Shown here piece after piece: positions 5,731 to 47,430 of a stretch of DNA of 64,000 nucleotides. Position 1 is the stretch's first letter. Every line of letters starts with the position of its first letter. Position numbers and translations under genes: made by a program. This stretch comes from Terrabacter sp. Ter38 (GTDB taxonomy: Bacteria > Actinomycetota > Actinomycetes > Actinomycetales > Dermatophilaceae), in the NCBI RefSeq assembly GCF_024519435.1, contig NZ_JALJRZ010000001.1:248001-312000 (forward strand), in the 5' to 3' direction. Below the pieces are notes generated by a model. That model saw nothing but the letters and a program-made list of their open reading frames with translations. It made no database searches and was not told the origin of the DNA.

Positions 5731-6192
5731 GCAGGCGGACGACTGTCGTGCTCGCGTCCACCCGACACGGGCCGGCACACGGCGACGCGGAGCAGACGTT
5801 GGCGACGACGGCCGACGCCGCGCGTCGGAGCGAGGCGTCGCTCCTGGGCTGCGGGCCACGTCCAGCACTCCCAGCCGGGGGCGCGGTGCGCGGCGCACCC
5901 CTCGTGGCTCACGTGGAACCCCTCGCGGTGCGGTGCGCGGCTGAGGGACGTGGCGGTATGCGTGGAGCATCCGCCCGGGTCACGGCGCGGTCGGGCGGGA
6001 CGACGGTCTCGGATGCGACGGGTGCCGGCACGGGTCGCTCCTCTCTTCCTCGGCAGGCGACCGAACGGGGCGGGCCCGCCGGCCCCCTCACCGGCCCCCG
6101 CGGAACGACCGCGCTGGACGCGCACCTCGTGGCCGCGTGCTGTGGGAACGACGTGACACGCCCGAGGGTTACGCGTCGGTAGCCGGACGACG
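5731..6192. other. Non-coding interval
   Basis: About 460 bp between the merR promoter and the FUSC gene. Open frames exist on both strands but have the Arg/Pro/Ala-rich composition of GC-rich shadow frames and no recognisable domain. I see no gene, terminator or repeat here. Confidence 0.5.
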
Positions 6193-7407
6193 TCAGCGAT
6201 GGGGCTGCCCGTGACGTCGGAGTCGGGACCACAGCCCTGCTGCGGGTGGCGGCGGCCGCAGCGATCCGGTGTCCCCCGGGACGACCGCCGCCTCGCGGGC
6301 GGACTCGAGCTCGGCGACGGCCCGCTGCGAGTCGCTGATGAGCGAGCCGTAGACGGGCCACTGCTCGGGGTCCTCGAGGGGCGTCGTGCGCACCTGCTCG
6401 CTCAGCGAGGCGAGGACCTCGCGAGCCCGGGCCGTGCCCTCGTCGAACCGCCGGGTCGCGTCGTGGTCGTGTCGGCCCAGCTGTGACACGGCCTGTGCCA
6501 TCCCGTCGAGTGCGTCGGCGTACTCCGCGAGGAACGTGGCCGAGGGCGCGGGCCGTCGACGCCGCTCGTCAGCAGCATCGACGAGGGTGCGGCCGATGCC
6601 CGTGACCTCCCAGACGGTCCGTCGGAGCGTCGTGACGGTGCGCTCGTAGCCGTCCCAGTCGACGTCTGCGGGACGGATGTTGTCACGCAGGTTGAAGCGC
6701 ATGCTCTCGCGACCGGTGCGGATGTCGTCGACGATGTACGGCGCCTTGTCGCCGATCTCGCCCCCACGGCGGTACCACCGACGCGCCGACTGGACGTCCC
6801 AGTCACCGCGGAGCCCGGAGGCCATCTCCTCGAGGAGCTCACGCACCTGTCGCGCGAGCGCCGACACCCGCTGACGCGGCTTGGTCAGGTGCAGCGGTGC
6901 CAGCACGATGGCGTTGGTCGCCACCCCGATGATGCCGCCGACCACCGTCTCGACGATCGTCAGGTAGGTGAAGTGCTCGTCGGTGCCACCGGCGGTGATG
7001 AGCGACAGGAGCACCATGGCCGGCACCTGGATGCCGTGCTCCCCCAGACGCGACCACCGTCCGATGACGAGCGCGACGAGGATGACCCCGAACATCGTCC
7101 ACCACGTGACCCCGAAGACCGTGGCGACGACCCACGCGACGCTGAGCCCGAGCACGACGGCGGCGATGCGCTGGGCGCTGGCCGCCAGGGAACGCACCAT
7201 CGTGCGGTCGACGACGAGGAGGGCGGCCATCGGCGCGTAGAACGGGACCGGGCTGTCGAGCACCCGCACCGCGAACTGCCACGCGAGGACGGTCGCGATC
7301 GCCGCCTTGACGAGGAGCAGCAGGGCGTCGCGCTCCGGCCCGGGCTGGTGCAGCGCCCGACGCAGGGCCCGCAGCCGCTGGTTGGCGTCGTCCTGCCACT
7401 GGCTCAC
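6193..7407 (-). CDS. FUSC-family membrane protein (aromatic acid exporter-like)
   Basis: About 404 residues. The N-terminal third has six hydrophobic segments (from KAAIATVLAWQFAV to IIGVATNAIVLAPLHL) typical of FUSC/ArAE proteins, which export aromatic acids or form membrane scaffolds. The rest is a helical cytoplasmic domain with many Arg/Glu. I chose GTG 7407 (SQWQDDANQRL follows), because upstream residues in the open frame are low-complexity Ser/Arg/Gly; the ribosome site is weak. It may share a transcript with the BrkB gene upstream. Confidence 0.75.
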   Translation of the reverse strand: MSQWQDDANQRLRALRRALHQPGPERDALLLLVKAAIATVLAWQFAVRVLDSPVPFYAPMAALLVVDRTMVRSLAASAQRIAAVVLGLSVAWVVATVFGVTWWTMFGVILVALVIGRWSRLGEHGIQVPAMVLLSLITAGGTDEHFTYLTIVETVVGGIIGVATNAIVLAPLHLTKPRQRVSALARQVRELLEEMASGLRGDWDVQSARRWYRRGGEIGDKAPYIVDDIRTGRESMRFNLRDNIRPADVDWDGYERTVTTLRRTVWEVTGIGRTLVDAADERRRRPAPSATFLAEYADALDGMAQAVSQLGRHDHDATRRFDEGTARAREVLASLSEQVRTTPLEDPEQWPVYGSLISDSQRAVAELESAREAAVVPGDTGSLRPPPPAAGLWSRLRRHGQPHR

Positions 7408-40766: not shown

Positions 40767-41068
40767 CGCGGCGGACACGCAGCCTCTCCGTGCGGCAGCA
40801 AGGAAGAGGTACGCCGCTGGCCGCGTCGCACCCGTTCGGGCGGTCTGGCATTGACGCGGTCCGTGCGCACCGCTGCACCTGTTCGTCGAGCCACGACTCC
40901 AGCTGCCCGAGCGACAGAAGTAGAGCGAGTCCTGCGAGGGGCCACCAACATCGTGAGCAGCGTCATGTCCAGTCCTTGTGCCGGTCGACCGCCGTGTCTG
41001 GTCGGTCTCAGACTGACGACGCCCACACCCCCAGACCATGACGAGAGCCCTTTGGGTACGGTCACCCC

Positions 41069-42160
41069 ATGAGCGCGACCGAGCGCTCCGGGGACGCCCC
41101 CGGCCACACCGCGGACGACGTCGCGGACCTCATTCCGATGGTCCGCCGGATCGTCTACTCCAGGGTCGGGTCGCACCCTTCGGCCGAAGACCTCGTCCAG
41201 GAGACCTTGACCCGAGTCCTGTCCGCGGCGTCGACGGTCGAACCCGGCATGCTCGAGCCCTACGCGATCGTGACGGCCCGGAACGTCGTGTCCAGCCTGT
41301 GGCGGGACATCGATCGCAAGAACCGGAACCAGCACCGACTCGTCGACCTCAGCGCCCCGGAACCACCTGAGAAGCAGGTCGTTCTCGAGGAGGAGCAGTC
41401 GGCGATGGCCGCGGCACTCGCACGGCTCGATGAGCGGGAACGCCGGGCGCTGCTCGACCACGAGGTCGACGGGGCCGACACGCACGCCCTGGCGGCTCGC
41501 CATGGCACGACTGCAGGCGCCGTGGCCGCGCAGCTCAACCGGACGCGGGCCCGGTTGCGTGTCGAGTACCTGCTGGCGATCGAGCATGTCGATCCACCGA
41601 CCGATCGTTGTCGGCCGGTGCTCATCGCCCTGAGCAGCGGGGACCAACGGCGTCAGCGTGAGGTGCAGGCGGCTCAGCACCTCCTCGAGTGCGAGCCGTG
41701 CGCCCGGCTCAGCCAGCCGCTGCTCGAGCGGGGCCAGCAGCGCAACGACTGCCTCCGGATCCCGGTGAGCTCCGACGCCGACATCGTGTCGGCCCGCCGC
41801 GCGGCGCGCGAGCTCGCCACGCGCCTGGCCTTCGGCGCCACAGACCTGACCGTGATCGCCACGGCCGTGTCCGAGGTGTGCCGCAACATCGTCCGCTTCG
41901 CCGGCAGCGGAGAGGTCGTCGTCGAGCTGCTCGAGGCGCCGACACGCGGGATCCAGATCGTCGCCCGCGACGGTGGACCCGGCATCACGGACGTCGATCG
42001 AGCGCTCGGCGACGGCTTCAGCACCTACGGCGGGCTGGGACTCGGGCTTCCTGGAGTCAGGCGATTGATGGACGAGTTCGCGATCGCGAGCGAGCCCGGC
42101 CACGGCACCACCGTGACGATGACCAAGTGGGAAGGAACTGACCATGAACGACCGACCTGA
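41069..42160 (+). CDS. Sigma factor - zinc-finger - RsbT-like ATPase fusion
   Basis: 363 residues with three parts. Residues 16-90 are sigma region 2 (DLVQETLTRVL, YAIVTARNVVSSLWRD). Residues 113-170 are sigma region 4 with its helix-turn-helix (LAARHGTTAGAVAAQLNRTRARL). Residues 200-222 hold an anti-sigma zinc-finger pattern HX3CX2C (His204, Cys208, Cys211). Residues 232-355 are a GHKL ATPase of the RsbT/RsbW type: N-box EVCRNIVRF, DGGPGI, and GGLGLGLPGV. Because RsbR and RsbS follow directly, RsbT is the best reading of the last domain. I infer that release of this domain from the stressosome frees or activates the attached sigma factor. Confidence 0.82.
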   Translation: MSATERSGDAPGHTADDVADLIPMVRRIVYSRVGSHPSAEDLVQETLTRVLSAASTVEPGMLEPYAIVTARNVVSSLWRDIDRKNRNQHRLVDLSAPEPPEKQVVLEEEQSAMAAALARLDERERRALLDHEVDGADTHALAARHGTTAGAVAAQLNRTRARLRVEYLLAIEHVDPPTDRCRPVLIALSSGDQRRQREVQAAQHLLECEPCARLSQPLLERGQQRNDCLRIPVSSDADIVSARRAARELATRLAFGATDLTVIATAVSEVCRNIVRFAGSGEVVVELLEAPTRGIQIVARDGGPGITDVDRALGDGFSTYGGLGLGLPGVRRLMDEFAIASEPGHGTTVTMTKWEGTDHERPT

Positions 42161-43058
42161 GGAGCTCCCACAGATGGAGCAGGCACCCGAGCACGACTCC
42201 GCACAGTCCGGTCCCGGCGGGCACCTCCTGTCCCAGCTCGTGGCCCATCTTCGAGAGCACCGGACGCGGCTCCAGGAGGAGTGGTCGCAGCGCATCCAGC
42301 AGACGCACCTCTTGACGGCAATGACTCCGCAAGAGATGGCGGCCGAGACGACCTCGGTCTACGACAACTACGTCGAGGTCCTCGAGACGGGCAACGTCGA
42401 GGCGCTGCAGCACTACGCGAAGGACCTCTCCGAGAGGATCATCCCGCGGGGGGTCGAGACTCACGAGGTCGTCGGTATCGTGCTGCTGCTGCGCGACGTT
42501 CTTGCTCGGTCGCTGTTCGAGAAGTACCAACGCGACTTCTCCATGCTCAACGAGGTCCTCGACGCCTACGAGCCTGCTGCAAACCGCATCGCCAACACGG
42601 TCGCCGTCAGCTTCGTCGACGAACGTGAACGCGTCATCCGCCAGCAGCAGGATGCCATCCGCGAGCTCTCCACTCCGGTGCTCCCGGTCCGCGAGCGCCT
42701 CCTGATCCTGCCCATCATCGGCGTGCTGGACAGCGAGCGCGCCCGCCAGCTCACCGAGCAGCTCCTCTCGGGGATCCGCAAGCATCGCGCCAAGGTCGTC
42801 GTCATCGACATCACGGGTTCGCCCGACGTCGACGAGTCGGTGGCGAACCACCTCGTGCAGACCGTCGACGCGTCACGTCTCATGGGCGCGAGCGTCATCA
42901 TCACCGGGCTCTCCCCGAAGATCGCGCAGACCCTCGTGACCATCGGGGTGGATCTGAGCAAGATGAACACGATCGGGGACCTGCAAGGGGGCCTCGAGGA
43001 GGCCGAGCGACTCCTCGGCTACACCGTGACCCGGAAGGAGGTCAGCACCAGCTCGTGA
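42144..43058 (+). CDS. rsbR: RsbR-type stressosome sensor protein
   Basis: 304 residues. The N-terminal domain (about 30-155) is all helical and of the RsbRD N-terminal type. The C-terminal STAS domain (about 178-295) matches RsbR (VVVIDITGSPDVDESVANHL...KIAQTLVTIGVDLS). The site equivalent to Thr171 of Bacillus RsbRA is Glu231, while the Thr205 equivalent is kept as Thr263. Only the latter could be phosphorylated by RsbT. ATG 42144 follows GAAGGAAC and lies 17 bp inside the sigma fusion gene. Confidence 0.85.
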   Translation: MNDRPEELPQMEQAPEHDSAQSGPGGHLLSQLVAHLREHRTRLQEEWSQRIQQTHLLTAMTPQEMAAETTSVYDNYVEVLETGNVEALQHYAKDLSERIIPRGVETHEVVGIVLLLRDVLARSLFEKYQRDFSMLNEVLDAYEPAANRIANTVAVSFVDERERVIRQQQDAIRELSTPVLPVRERLLILPIIGVLDSERARQLTEQLLSGIRKHRAKVVVIDITGSPDVDESVANHLVQTVDASRLMGASVIITGLSPKIAQTLVTIGVDLSKMNTIGDLQGGLEEAERLLGYTVTRKEVSTSS

Positions 43059-43453
43059 ACGGCGGACCGGCGCTCGTCTCCATCATGCGGCAGGGATCGA
43101 CCCTGATCGCGTCGGTGCACACTGCCCTGAACGACTCCGAGCTCGTCCGGTTCGAGCACGACCTCGTCGACCAGATCGGTGAACACCGTTCCCGAGGCGT
43201 CATCATCGACGTCGCGGCACTGGACGTCATCGACTCCTTCGCCGCTCTCACCCTGCGCCGGATCGCGGACATGGCGCGCCTTCGCGGGGCACAGACGGTT
43301 CTCGTCGGCATCCAGCCCGAGGTGGCCTTCACCATGGTGCGCCTCGGCATGGGCACGGGCGCCGTCCCGACCGCCCTCGACCTCGAAGAGGGCCTCGCCC
43401 TCCTCGCCGAGCAGGGGTCGCACCATCCGCGCCCGGACGAACCCGAGGCGTGA
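43055..43453 (+). CDS. rsbS: RsbS-type stressosome scaffold (STAS domain)
   Basis: 132 residues, a single STAS domain. The RsbS serine target is present as Ser61 in DVIDSFAALTLRRI, in the position of Ser59 in Bacillus RsbS. Phosphorylation there by RsbT normally releases RsbT from the complex. GTG 43055 overlaps the RsbR stop by 4 bp. No other domain. Confidence 0.88.
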   Translation: MNGGPALVSIMRQGSTLIASVHTALNDSELVRFEHDLVDQIGEHRSRGVIIDVAALDVIDSFAALTLRRIADMARLRGAQTVLVGIQPEVAFTMVRLGMGTGAVPTALDLEEGLALLAEQGSHHPRPDEPEA

Positions 43454-43462
43454 CGAACCACA

Positions 43463-43771
43463 GTGGCCGCACACGGGAGGGACACCCTCAGTCCCGAGGA
43501 CTTCAGGCAGAACTACCGCCTGACGCTCCGCCGCTTCCTGCCCCGTCGAGACGAGGCCGCGCGGGAGGCGGCATACGACCTGGGGCGCCGTGCCTTCACC
43601 GCGGGCATCAGCCTCCTCGAGGTCTGCCGGGTACACCACGACTCGAGCCTCGAGCTCCTGAGCGAGTCCCACGCCGCCGACCACCGTGCGATCTTCGAGA
43701 CGACGGGCGAGCTGCTGCTCGAGGTACTGGCGGCATACGACATGACTCACCGGAGCGTGCTCGACCCGTGA
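43463..43771 (+). CDS. Stand-alone RsbU N-terminal domain protein
   Basis: 102 residues, all helical (FRQNYRLTLRRFLPRRDEAARE, GISLLEVCRVHHDSSLELL, LLLEVLAAYDMTHR). The pattern matches the N-terminal domain of the phosphatase RsbU, which binds RsbT. No PP2C phosphatase domain follows, and none is encoded nearby. It starts at GTG 43463, nine bases after the RsbS stop, so it is part of the operon. It may compete with sigma for the RsbT domain. Confidence 0.7.
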   Translation: MAAHGRDTLSPEDFRQNYRLTLRRFLPRRDEAAREAAYDLGRRAFTAGISLLEVCRVHHDSSLELLSESHAADHRAIFETTGELLLEVLAAYDMTHRSVLDP

Positions 43772-46485: not shown

Positions 46486-47430
46486 GTGACCGAGGGAACC
46501 GTCCGCTGGTTCGATGCCGACCGGGGGTTTGGCTTCATCGCCCTCGGGCAGGATGCAGAGGACCTGTACGTGCATGCGTCCGAGATCGTCAGCGACGACG
46601 CGATGAAGCTGCTCCGGGAGGGGCAGGTGGTTGAGTTCGATATCGGCGAGGGGGACCGCGGCCCGCAGGCACGCCGCGTCCGGGTCACCGCCGACCAGGC
46701 CGCCGATACACCGCTGGGCGTGCTCGGCACCGTCGCCTGGTACGAGCCTGCCAAGGGGTACGGCTTCGTCACGCCCGATGGCGGTGGTGTCGAGATCTTC
46801 GTGCACAGTTCGGCCATCGTGGCCGGCGGTGTGGTCTCGGAGGCACAGCGGGTGGCGTTCCTCGTGGTCGACGGGGACAAGGGACCGCAGGCTGCCCATC
46901 TGCTGCCCTTGGGTGCCCAGACCGCCCAGGAGGTCGCGGCATCCGACGGGGCGGACGGCACCGTGTCCTGGTACGACGGGGACAAAGGCTTCGGGTTCAT
47001 CTCCCCCGAGTCGGGCGGCCCCGATGTCTTCGTCCACGTCCGGGCGCTGGCCGACGGGCTCCCCGAGCTGGGCGAGGGCGACCGGGTGACATACGACGTC
47101 GTCGTGAGCGAGAGGGGCCCGCAGGCTCGCGACGTGCGCCTCGCACGCCGCTCGGCACCGCGCGGCGCACCCGTGGCGTCGACGACCCGCGCTCGGTCGG
47201 GACACCGAGAGGCGTCCGACGTCCCGGCGCGCGGCGGCGAGGGAGTGGTCACGCGCTACGACCCCGAGCGGGGGTTCGGCTTCATCGCCCCCGACGCGGG
47301 AGGCGCGGACCTGTTCGTGCACGTCTCTGTCCTCAGAGGCGCCGAGGCGCTGCACCAGGGCGATCGGGTCCGGTACCACGTGCGACAGAGCGATCGAGGA
47401 CCACAGGCCGACCGCGTCGAACGGGTGTGA
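46486..47430 (+). CDS. Protein with four tandem cold-shock domains
   Basis: 314 residues that contain four cold-shock domains, at about 2-67, 80-140, 155-218 and 248-314. Each shows the RNP1-like RGFGFI, KGYGFV, KGFGFI and RGFGFI and the RNP2-like LYVHAS, IFVHSS, VFVHVR and LFVHVS. Typical bacterial cold-shock proteins have one. Linkers are short and acidic, the last one basic and disordered. It should bind single-stranded RNA or DNA with high avidity. GTG start with AAGGAG. Confidence 0.88.
   Translation: MTEGTVRWFDADRGFGFIALGQDAEDLYVHASEIVSDDAMKLLREGQVVEFDIGEGDRGPQARRVRVTADQAADTPLGVLGTVAWYEPAKGYGFVTPDGGGVEIFVHSSAIVAGGVVSEAQRVAFLVVDGDKGPQAAHLLPLGAQTAQEVAASDGADGTVSWYDGDKGFGFISPESGGPDVFVHVRALADGLPELGEGDRVTYDVVVSERGPQARDVRLARRSAPRGAPVASTTRARSGHREASDVPARGGEGVVTRYDPERGFGFIAPDAGGADLFVHVSVLRGAEALHQGDRVRYHVRQSDRGPQADRVERV

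Follow-up and report, generated by a model that had tools for sequence, protein, structure and literature searches.

How does a stressosome reach its target genes when its kinase is part of a sigma factor? This question is raised by an operon of Terrabacter sp. Ter38 (genome G000, 4.83 Mb; L and G numbers are handles for loci and genomes), which lies in a 64,000-nucleotide stretch of DNA, hereafter the window (contig NZ_JALJRZ010000001.1, positions 248,001 to 312,000 of the forward strand; coordinates below are those of the window). In Bacillus, the kinase released from the stressosome acts through a relay of further proteins. To our knowledge, stressosome signalling outside Bacillus is largely open. 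In the present operon, a sigma factor, a zinc anti-sigma motif and an RsbT-type kinase domain form a single protein, and its gene is followed by genes for RsbR, RsbS and the RsbT-binding domain of RsbU. The favoured answer, held with moderate confidence, is a stressosome that has its sigma-factor output built in, combining storage on the cage, phosphorylation-driven release, a zinc motif as second lock and the RsbU domain as partner.

The four genes are adjacent open reading frames (ORFs) on the plus strand that overlap or nearly do so. The fusion gene (41069..42160, 363 aa; read from the ORF list and Pfam) overlaps rsbR (42144..43058, 304 aa) by 17 nt, rsbR overlaps rsbS (43055..43453, 132 aa) by 4 nt, and the free RsbU N-terminal domain (RsbU_N; 102 aa; Pfam RsbU_N 7e-11) is encoded at 43463..43771. 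The rsbR product matches Listeria RsbR (9o4h, 2e-38), Pfam STAS (3e-14) and RsbRD_N (2e-4, under the cut-off), while RsbS matches Listeria RsbS (6qcm, 1.7e-23) and STAS (1e-12). The locus thus holds both an RsbR with a C-terminal STAS domain and an RsbS with the phospho-serine position, as a stressosome does. RsbS aside, this is the sole RsbR-like protein among the 11 STAS matches of the genome. The same domain reading of the four genes had been given in a preliminary description made from the letters of the window, and it is borne out by the Pfam and solved-structure matches.

The four-gene operon recurs in many genomes. Full-length fusions were found in 30 genomes in total, drawn from samples of the family, order, class and phylum. 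In the family sample (E<=1e-20), 27 of 186 genomes match, 26 with a full-length fusion and one with the ATPase part only, and full-length fusions occupy 9 of 53 genera. The order sample (1e-15) gave matches in 15 of 396 genomes, including 10 full fusions, all from the same family, and added nothing new. Two fusions each were added by the class sample (394 genomes; G554 and G742) and the phylum sample (396 genomes; G1089 and G1147). Named carriers are Terracoccus sp. 273MFTsu3.1 (96%), four Terrabacter records (76-84%), Intrasporangiaceae bacterium URHB0013 (80%) and Phycicoccus sp. CSK15P-2 (62%). Three plasmid records match the fusion, through the ATPase part only. RsbR, RsbS and a free RsbU_N follow the fusion in the same order and on the same strand in all 29 uncut loci (L141, with a contig end inside its RsbR, was left out of this count), and the 4-nt rsbR/rsbS overlap is present in 24 of 26 further loci. 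Because the same operon is kept across so many genomes, it is not a product of chance.

The type of the C-terminal domain is central to any interpretation. The RsbT-type ATPase/kinase domain (aa 230-357; 41756..42139, plus strand) matches Pfam HATPase_c_2 in the window fusion (4e-14, residues 237-353) and in all 28 scanned fusions. A hidden Markov model (HMM) was built from 10 free RsbTs, defined by adjoining RsbR/RsbS. With this HMM the 28 fusions score 148-171 bits, whereas SpoIIAB reaches 43 and three RsbW-like proteins encoded by the Terrabacter genome reach only 4-27; each of the fusions also scores higher than with an HMM of RsbX-fused GHKL domains. The modelled fold matches SpoIIAB (1l0o; Z 16.3, root-mean-square deviation 2.7, 127 residues aligned) and RsbW (6m37; Z 14.8, 1.9, 108 aligned); such matches are expected for the whole GHKL group, and the modelled fold does not separate RsbT from RsbW. 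The preliminary description had named clustering with RsbW or other anti-sigma kinases as a result that would overturn it. By HMM and tree, the domain groups with free RsbT and not with RsbW or SpoIIAB, and an RsbW or anti-sigma identity was rejected on sequence. The ATP site (N box, DxGxG, glycine lid) is complete, with E269, N273, D301, G303, G305 and GLGLGLPG present in 28 of 28 fusions; the glycines of the lid are also retained in two others, each with one conservative lid change (L to I or L to M). In other loci, L106 (5204-6235, minus strand) and L148 (3773-4969, plus strand), a second, RsbT-like GHKL domain stands N-terminal to an RsbX-like phosphatase in one ORF, and positions in L107, L108, L109, L146 and L147 suggest the same arrangement.

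The N-terminal half resembles an extracytoplasmic function (ECF) sigma factor. Sigma-70 region 2 (aa 20-83; 41126..41317, plus strand) is recognized by Pfam Sigma70_r2 (2.8e-11), and the models align to ECF sigma factors. Region 4 (aa 113-163; 41405..41557, plus strand) is matched by Sigma70_r4_2 (1e-5; 25.5 bits against a cut-off of 25.7). Sigma70_r2 matches 28 of the 28 scanned fusions and Sigma70_r4_2 matches 26 (E<=0.001), while TIGR02937 scores 64.9 bits in the window fusion, above its cut-off. Region 3 is not among the six families that match the 28 fusions, in keeping with group 4, the ECF sigma factors, and these fusion proteins may have a defined ECF group. Arginines 158, 160, 162 and 164 of region 4 are invariant in the 28. 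Next comes a motif like those of zinc anti-sigma (ZAS) domains (aa 176-222; 41594..41734, plus strand), in which the HX3CX2C already noted in the preliminary description (H204, C208, C211) is joined by Cys181 as a fourth ligand. All four positions of Cx22Hx3Cx2C are kept in 28 of 28 fusions and in two further ones (30/30). Zinc binding, and with it the ZAS name, is suggested by this Cys-His-Cys-Cys motif. The region is helical in the predicted models; none of the solved-structure matches listed falls on it, which says little because other domains fill the lists. Two models built from 8 sequences each reached a mean predicted local distance difference test score of 75 and 77 and a predicted template modelling score of 0.40 and 0.49; consequently, the arrangement of their domains is not interpreted.

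The closest non-fusion relatives of the sigma part are 12 proteins from six family codes, 36-55% identical (L104, L105, L138-L140, L178-L180, L182, L183, L185, L186). All 12 share the sigma part and the four zinc ligands with the fusions, and they continue, as read by eye, with a hydrophobic stretch like a membrane helix and a common outer part. This part is shared around 'EGFWV...WVQL', and no outer domain was named by Pfam above cut-off in the three proteins scanned. G1055, G1085 and G1104 each hold both such a sigma-zinc-transmembrane protein and a separate free RsbT. Since the sigma and zinc half is closest to these proteins, the most fitting reading of the fusion is an exchange of the regulatory half, with RsbT taking the place of the membrane part.

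The change of output is accompanied by changes in the partners. A tblastn search with two RsbX queries found RsbX in 0 of 30 fusion loci versus 17 of 19 free-RsbT loci (10/10 of a first set, two of which were the query sources, and 7/9 of a further set). The stretches searched were the 64-kb window, 9-14 kb for most loci, 5.6-6.9 kb for L188 and L189, and the cut L141. The RsbU of the fusion loci consists of the RsbT-binding domain only, which stops at, or shortly beyond, the start of the linker in full-length RsbU; the free RsbU_N of L188 and L189 extends 24-35 residues further. Stiffening of this linker is the reported means by which B. subtilis RsbT activates the RsbU phosphatase (PMC12143880, in the part available). 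The genome's sole RsbU_N match is the free 102-aa protein, so a search of the genome yielded no RsbU_N-bearing phosphatase. Against the PDB, the best 60 of 157 matches to RsbU_N contained only myoglobins (E 0.003 or worse), which were taken as chance. The free-RsbT loci L143-L145 show the gene order RsbR-RsbS-RsbT-RsbX-(RsbU_N-PAS-PP2C-RsbW), with the Pfam scan made on L144, and their RsbR, RsbS and RsbT are 75-80%, 55-58% and 51-54% identical to those of the window. They are probably from mycobacteria, because the same gene set, rsbR-rsbS-rsbT-rsbX-rsbUW, is reported there in the accessible text of PMC8115616. The two free-RsbT loci without RsbX are L181 and L194, where RsbU_N (834-1103 and 5951-6211) is followed by only about 160-190 residues with no phosphatase match. 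Around its single RsbS-RsbT-RsbX set, L191 (1302-6705) shows three RsbR-like and two RsbU_N matches.

A second change concerns the phosphosites of the cage. Ser61 of RsbS (43235..43237, plus strand) aligns with Listeria S56 and B. subtilis S59, and the position is kept in 29 of 29 fusion loci (27/27 and 2/2 further). In RsbR, Ser197 (42732..42734, plus strand) aligns with Listeria T175 and B. subtilis T171, and Glu231 (42834..42836, plus strand) with Listeria T209 and B. subtilis T205; Thr263, put forward in the preliminary description as the RsbR phosphosite, is not a known position. Serine or threonine occupies the 197 position in 23 of 29 fusion loci versus 17 of 20 RsbRs of free-RsbT loci. 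At the 231 position it occurs in none of 29 fusion loci (E 17, Q 6, V 3, A 2, H 1), compared with 17 of 20 RsbRs of free-RsbT loci (10/10 in the first 10 loci, 7/10 RsbRs in the wider set); the three exceptions carry K, K and E in L184, L195 and L194. In Listeria, T209 is reported to tune the response, in work that includes a T209E cage (preprint PMC12154155, in its available part). Sorted by RsbX, the 231 position holds serine or threonine in 17 of 19 RsbRs of RsbX-bearing loci versus 0 of 30 of RsbX-less ones, the latter including one free-RsbT locus, L194; these counts reflect shared descent, not independent events. From these sequences, the limiter arm, formed by the second RsbR phosphosite and RsbX, appears to have been dismantled in the fusion loci.

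The proposed mechanism runs as follows. In unstressed cells, the RsbT domain of each fusion would be docked on the RsbR/RsbS cage, so that the sigma factor would be stored there, and the zinc motif would mask the sigma part in cis. Under stress, the RsbT domain would phosphorylate Ser61 of RsbS, together with Ser197 of RsbR where present. Phosphorylation would loosen its grip, the whole fusion would depart from the cage, and the sigma part would bind RNA polymerase directly. The free RsbU_N may bind the released RsbT domain and either block re-docking or assist in unlocking the zinc motif. Such a pathway would do without RsbV, RsbW, an RsbU phosphatase and a separate sigma factor. The preliminary description had proposed a shortcut of this kind; the RsbT-type ATPase and the lack of an RsbU_N-bearing phosphatase favour it, with release and direct sigma action following as its conjectural steps. 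A fuller version has about an even chance of being right: a megadalton cage would store many copies of the sigma-zinc lock-RsbT protein, free them by phosphorylation, replace the relay from RsbU through RsbV and RsbW to sigma, and shed RsbX and the RsbR limiter site, the system having arisen when a one-protein sigma system exchanged its membrane sensor half for the stressosome kinase.

Several observations weigh against this account. A SigB/SigF/SigG-like sigma factor is encoded on another contig (TIGR02980, 214.6 bits, under the cut-off of 234), and RsbW-like and RsbV-like genes adjoin a GAF-PP2C gene 56-58 kb from the operon. The statement of the preliminary description that no PP2C, RsbV or RsbW is nearby consequently holds locally but not genome-wide. 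It had also named, as a finding that would overturn it, an RsbU phosphatase and a separate SigB-type factor with RsbV/RsbW serving elsewhere in the genome as the output of this stressosome. Neither this test nor that of the ATPase type overturned the reading, as no RsbU_N-bearing phosphatase was found, but the SigB-like factor and the RsbV/RsbW-like genes exist. Two SpoIIE-type phosphatases are present in the genome and none in the operon: one is the GAF-PP2C beside the RsbW-like and RsbV-like genes, and the other, with hydrophobic segments as judged by eye, lies on another contig. At the fusion loci, neither RsbX nor another phosphatase that could reset RsbS was seen, except in L066, where a partial GAF-type PP2C lies about 4 kb from the fusion locus. 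Ser197 of RsbR is not universal, and because 19 of 27 fusion loci have serine or threonine at residue 232, next to Glu231, the second phosphosite may have shifted. RsbU_N is the fastest-evolving part of the system. Finally, two fusion-related orphan ATPase genes occur without the sigma part and the partners.

Other explanations give the parts different roles. The main rival, itself unlikely, treats the ATPase as an anti-sigma domain acting in cis, like RsbW or SpoIIAB; unphosphorylated RsbS and RsbR would play the part of RsbV, binding the ATPase and thereby freeing the sigma part, and the signal would then have the opposite sign. The shared GHKL fold (Z of about 15-16 to SpoIIAB and RsbW) and the very fusion to a sigma factor lend it some appeal, but the free-RsbT HMM scores place the sequence with RsbT, far above SpoIIAB and the RsbW-like proteins, and the fusion already contains a separate, invariant zinc anti-sigma motif. 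We also know of no RsbT that binds a sigma factor. The zinc motif could instead be the real sensor, of thiol/zinc redox state like RsrA-type anti-sigma domains, with the RsbT domain merely placing the protein on the cage. The C-H-C-C ligands, constant across all 30 fusions and all 12 sigma-zinc-transmembrane relatives, suit this idea; it is rather improbable, as it does not account for the kinase site and the RsbS serine, both invariant, or for the constant linkage to RsbR, RsbS and RsbU_N.

Two further explanations take the output away from the fusion. The sigma part might be a PhyR-like mimic that titrates an anti-sigma factor and is no working sigma factor, as PhyR_sigma2 matches 12 of 28 fusions (E<=0.001), although it stays under cut-off in the window protein. 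This is very improbable given that Sigma70_r2 matches all 28, reaches 43.5 bits in the window protein versus 18.2 for PhyR_sigma2, and is accompanied by the four invariant arginines of region 4. Least probable of all is that the stressosome still feeds a SigB/SigF-type factor through RsbV/RsbW and that the fusion is a side branch. The SigB/SigF/SigG-like factor and the RsbW-like and RsbV-like genes by the GAF-PP2C would provide the components, but no phosphatase in the genome bears RsbU_N, the SigB-type genes all lie outside the operon, and no candidate connector from the operon to the SigB/SigF/SigG-like factor was found in the genome. The built-in sigma-factor output is retained as the preferred explanation.

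That the parts work together is consistent with how they have evolved. Distances of six parts correlate over 15 pairs (r 0.42-0.86; 0 of 300 permutations as high for each pair). Between the window and six same-genus relatives, the ratio of nonsynonymous to synonymous substitution rates is at most 0.19 for the sigma part, zinc motif, RsbT, RsbR and RsbS and 0.28-0.41 for RsbU_N; by these sequence comparisons, all parts are under purifying selection. A first ATPase tree explains the 28 fusions by one change (95/86) and places the two orphans inside the fusion group. With more free RsbTs added, the far fusions L188 and L189 fall among the free RsbTs (94/92) and two changes are needed, while an approximately unbiased test does not reject a single fusion clade (p 0.384). 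Fusions, free RsbTs and transmembrane sigma forms show clustering in the trees, and the fusion arose either once or twice. In the sigma tree, the transmembrane forms lie on one side of a branch (93/75); drawn with a root on far, long-branched outgroups, the fusions are not one clade, and this root rests on those outgroups. The orphan RsbT-domain genes in L065 (6455-6835, minus strand) and L078 (6390-6758, plus strand) have no sigma part, RsbR, RsbS or RsbU_N within 13 kb, and a transposase-like ORF, judged by eye, lies near that of L065.

The operon shares with the RsbR-RsbS-RsbT stressosomes of Bacillus and Listeria the RsbR and RsbS homologues, the RsbS phospho-serine and an RsbT-type kinase. 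In contrast to them, RsbT is fused to a sigma factor, the second RsbR phosphosite is replaced, and the fusion operon is without RsbX, RsbU phosphatase, RsbV, RsbW and sigB. The mycobacterial set (PMC8115616, as far as available; L143-L145) has related RsbR, RsbS, RsbT and RsbU_N, but its RsbT is free, RsbX is present and RsbU_N is carried on a PAS-PP2C-RsbW protein. The ECF48, ECF52 and ECF53 sigma factors, described in the available part of PMC8999054 as having a fused zinc and transmembrane anti-sigma part, likewise place sigma regions 2 and 4 before a zinc motif in a single protein; the fusion has an RsbT domain in place of their transmembrane helix and outer domain, and the sigma-zinc-transmembrane relatives resemble them in layout. 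Stressosome outputs other than the SigB cascade are also reported, a GGDEF protein in Moorella and histidine kinases in some Proteobacteria (PMC12143880 and PMC9237108, in the parts available). There the effector bears RsbU_N, to which RsbT binds, whereas here the effector is fused to RsbT and RsbU_N is bare. A literature search showed no sigma-RsbT fusion in the titles and abstract openings among the matches listed, which were partial for some queries.

If the proposal is correct, some actinobacteria have shortened a known stress pathway, and a giant sensor stores and releases a gene switch without a relay. With kinase and sigma factor in one chain, release from the cage could be read directly as transcription, which would make the whole pathway compact: one fusion and two cage proteins with a transcription readout. 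Where the relay has disappeared, so have RsbX and the second RsbR phosphosite, a suggestive trade that hints at the purpose of those parts.

Upstream of the operon, a conserved promoter-like octamer, sGTAsGGT (41055..41062, plus strand), lies 14 nt 5' of the start codon of the fusion. A motif search found it at -14/-15 of the start in 17 of 24 fusion upstream regions, with a log-likelihood ratio of 63 (14 random starts) versus 15-23 in 6 shuffles (8 starts each). L070, with a misjudged start, and the near-copies L059, L069 and L073 were left out of this search. The Terrabacter sequence there is GGGTAC or GGGTAG. The fusion upstream regions yielded no -35 partner, and GTTT-N12-17-GGGTA occurs in 0 of 28. 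The octamer could be a leaderless -10 element, and no sigma factor is ascribed to it. Further downstream in the window, at 46486-47430 on the plus strand, a 314-aa protein contains four tandem cold-shock domains (Pfam CSD 1.8e-78, 4 stretches).

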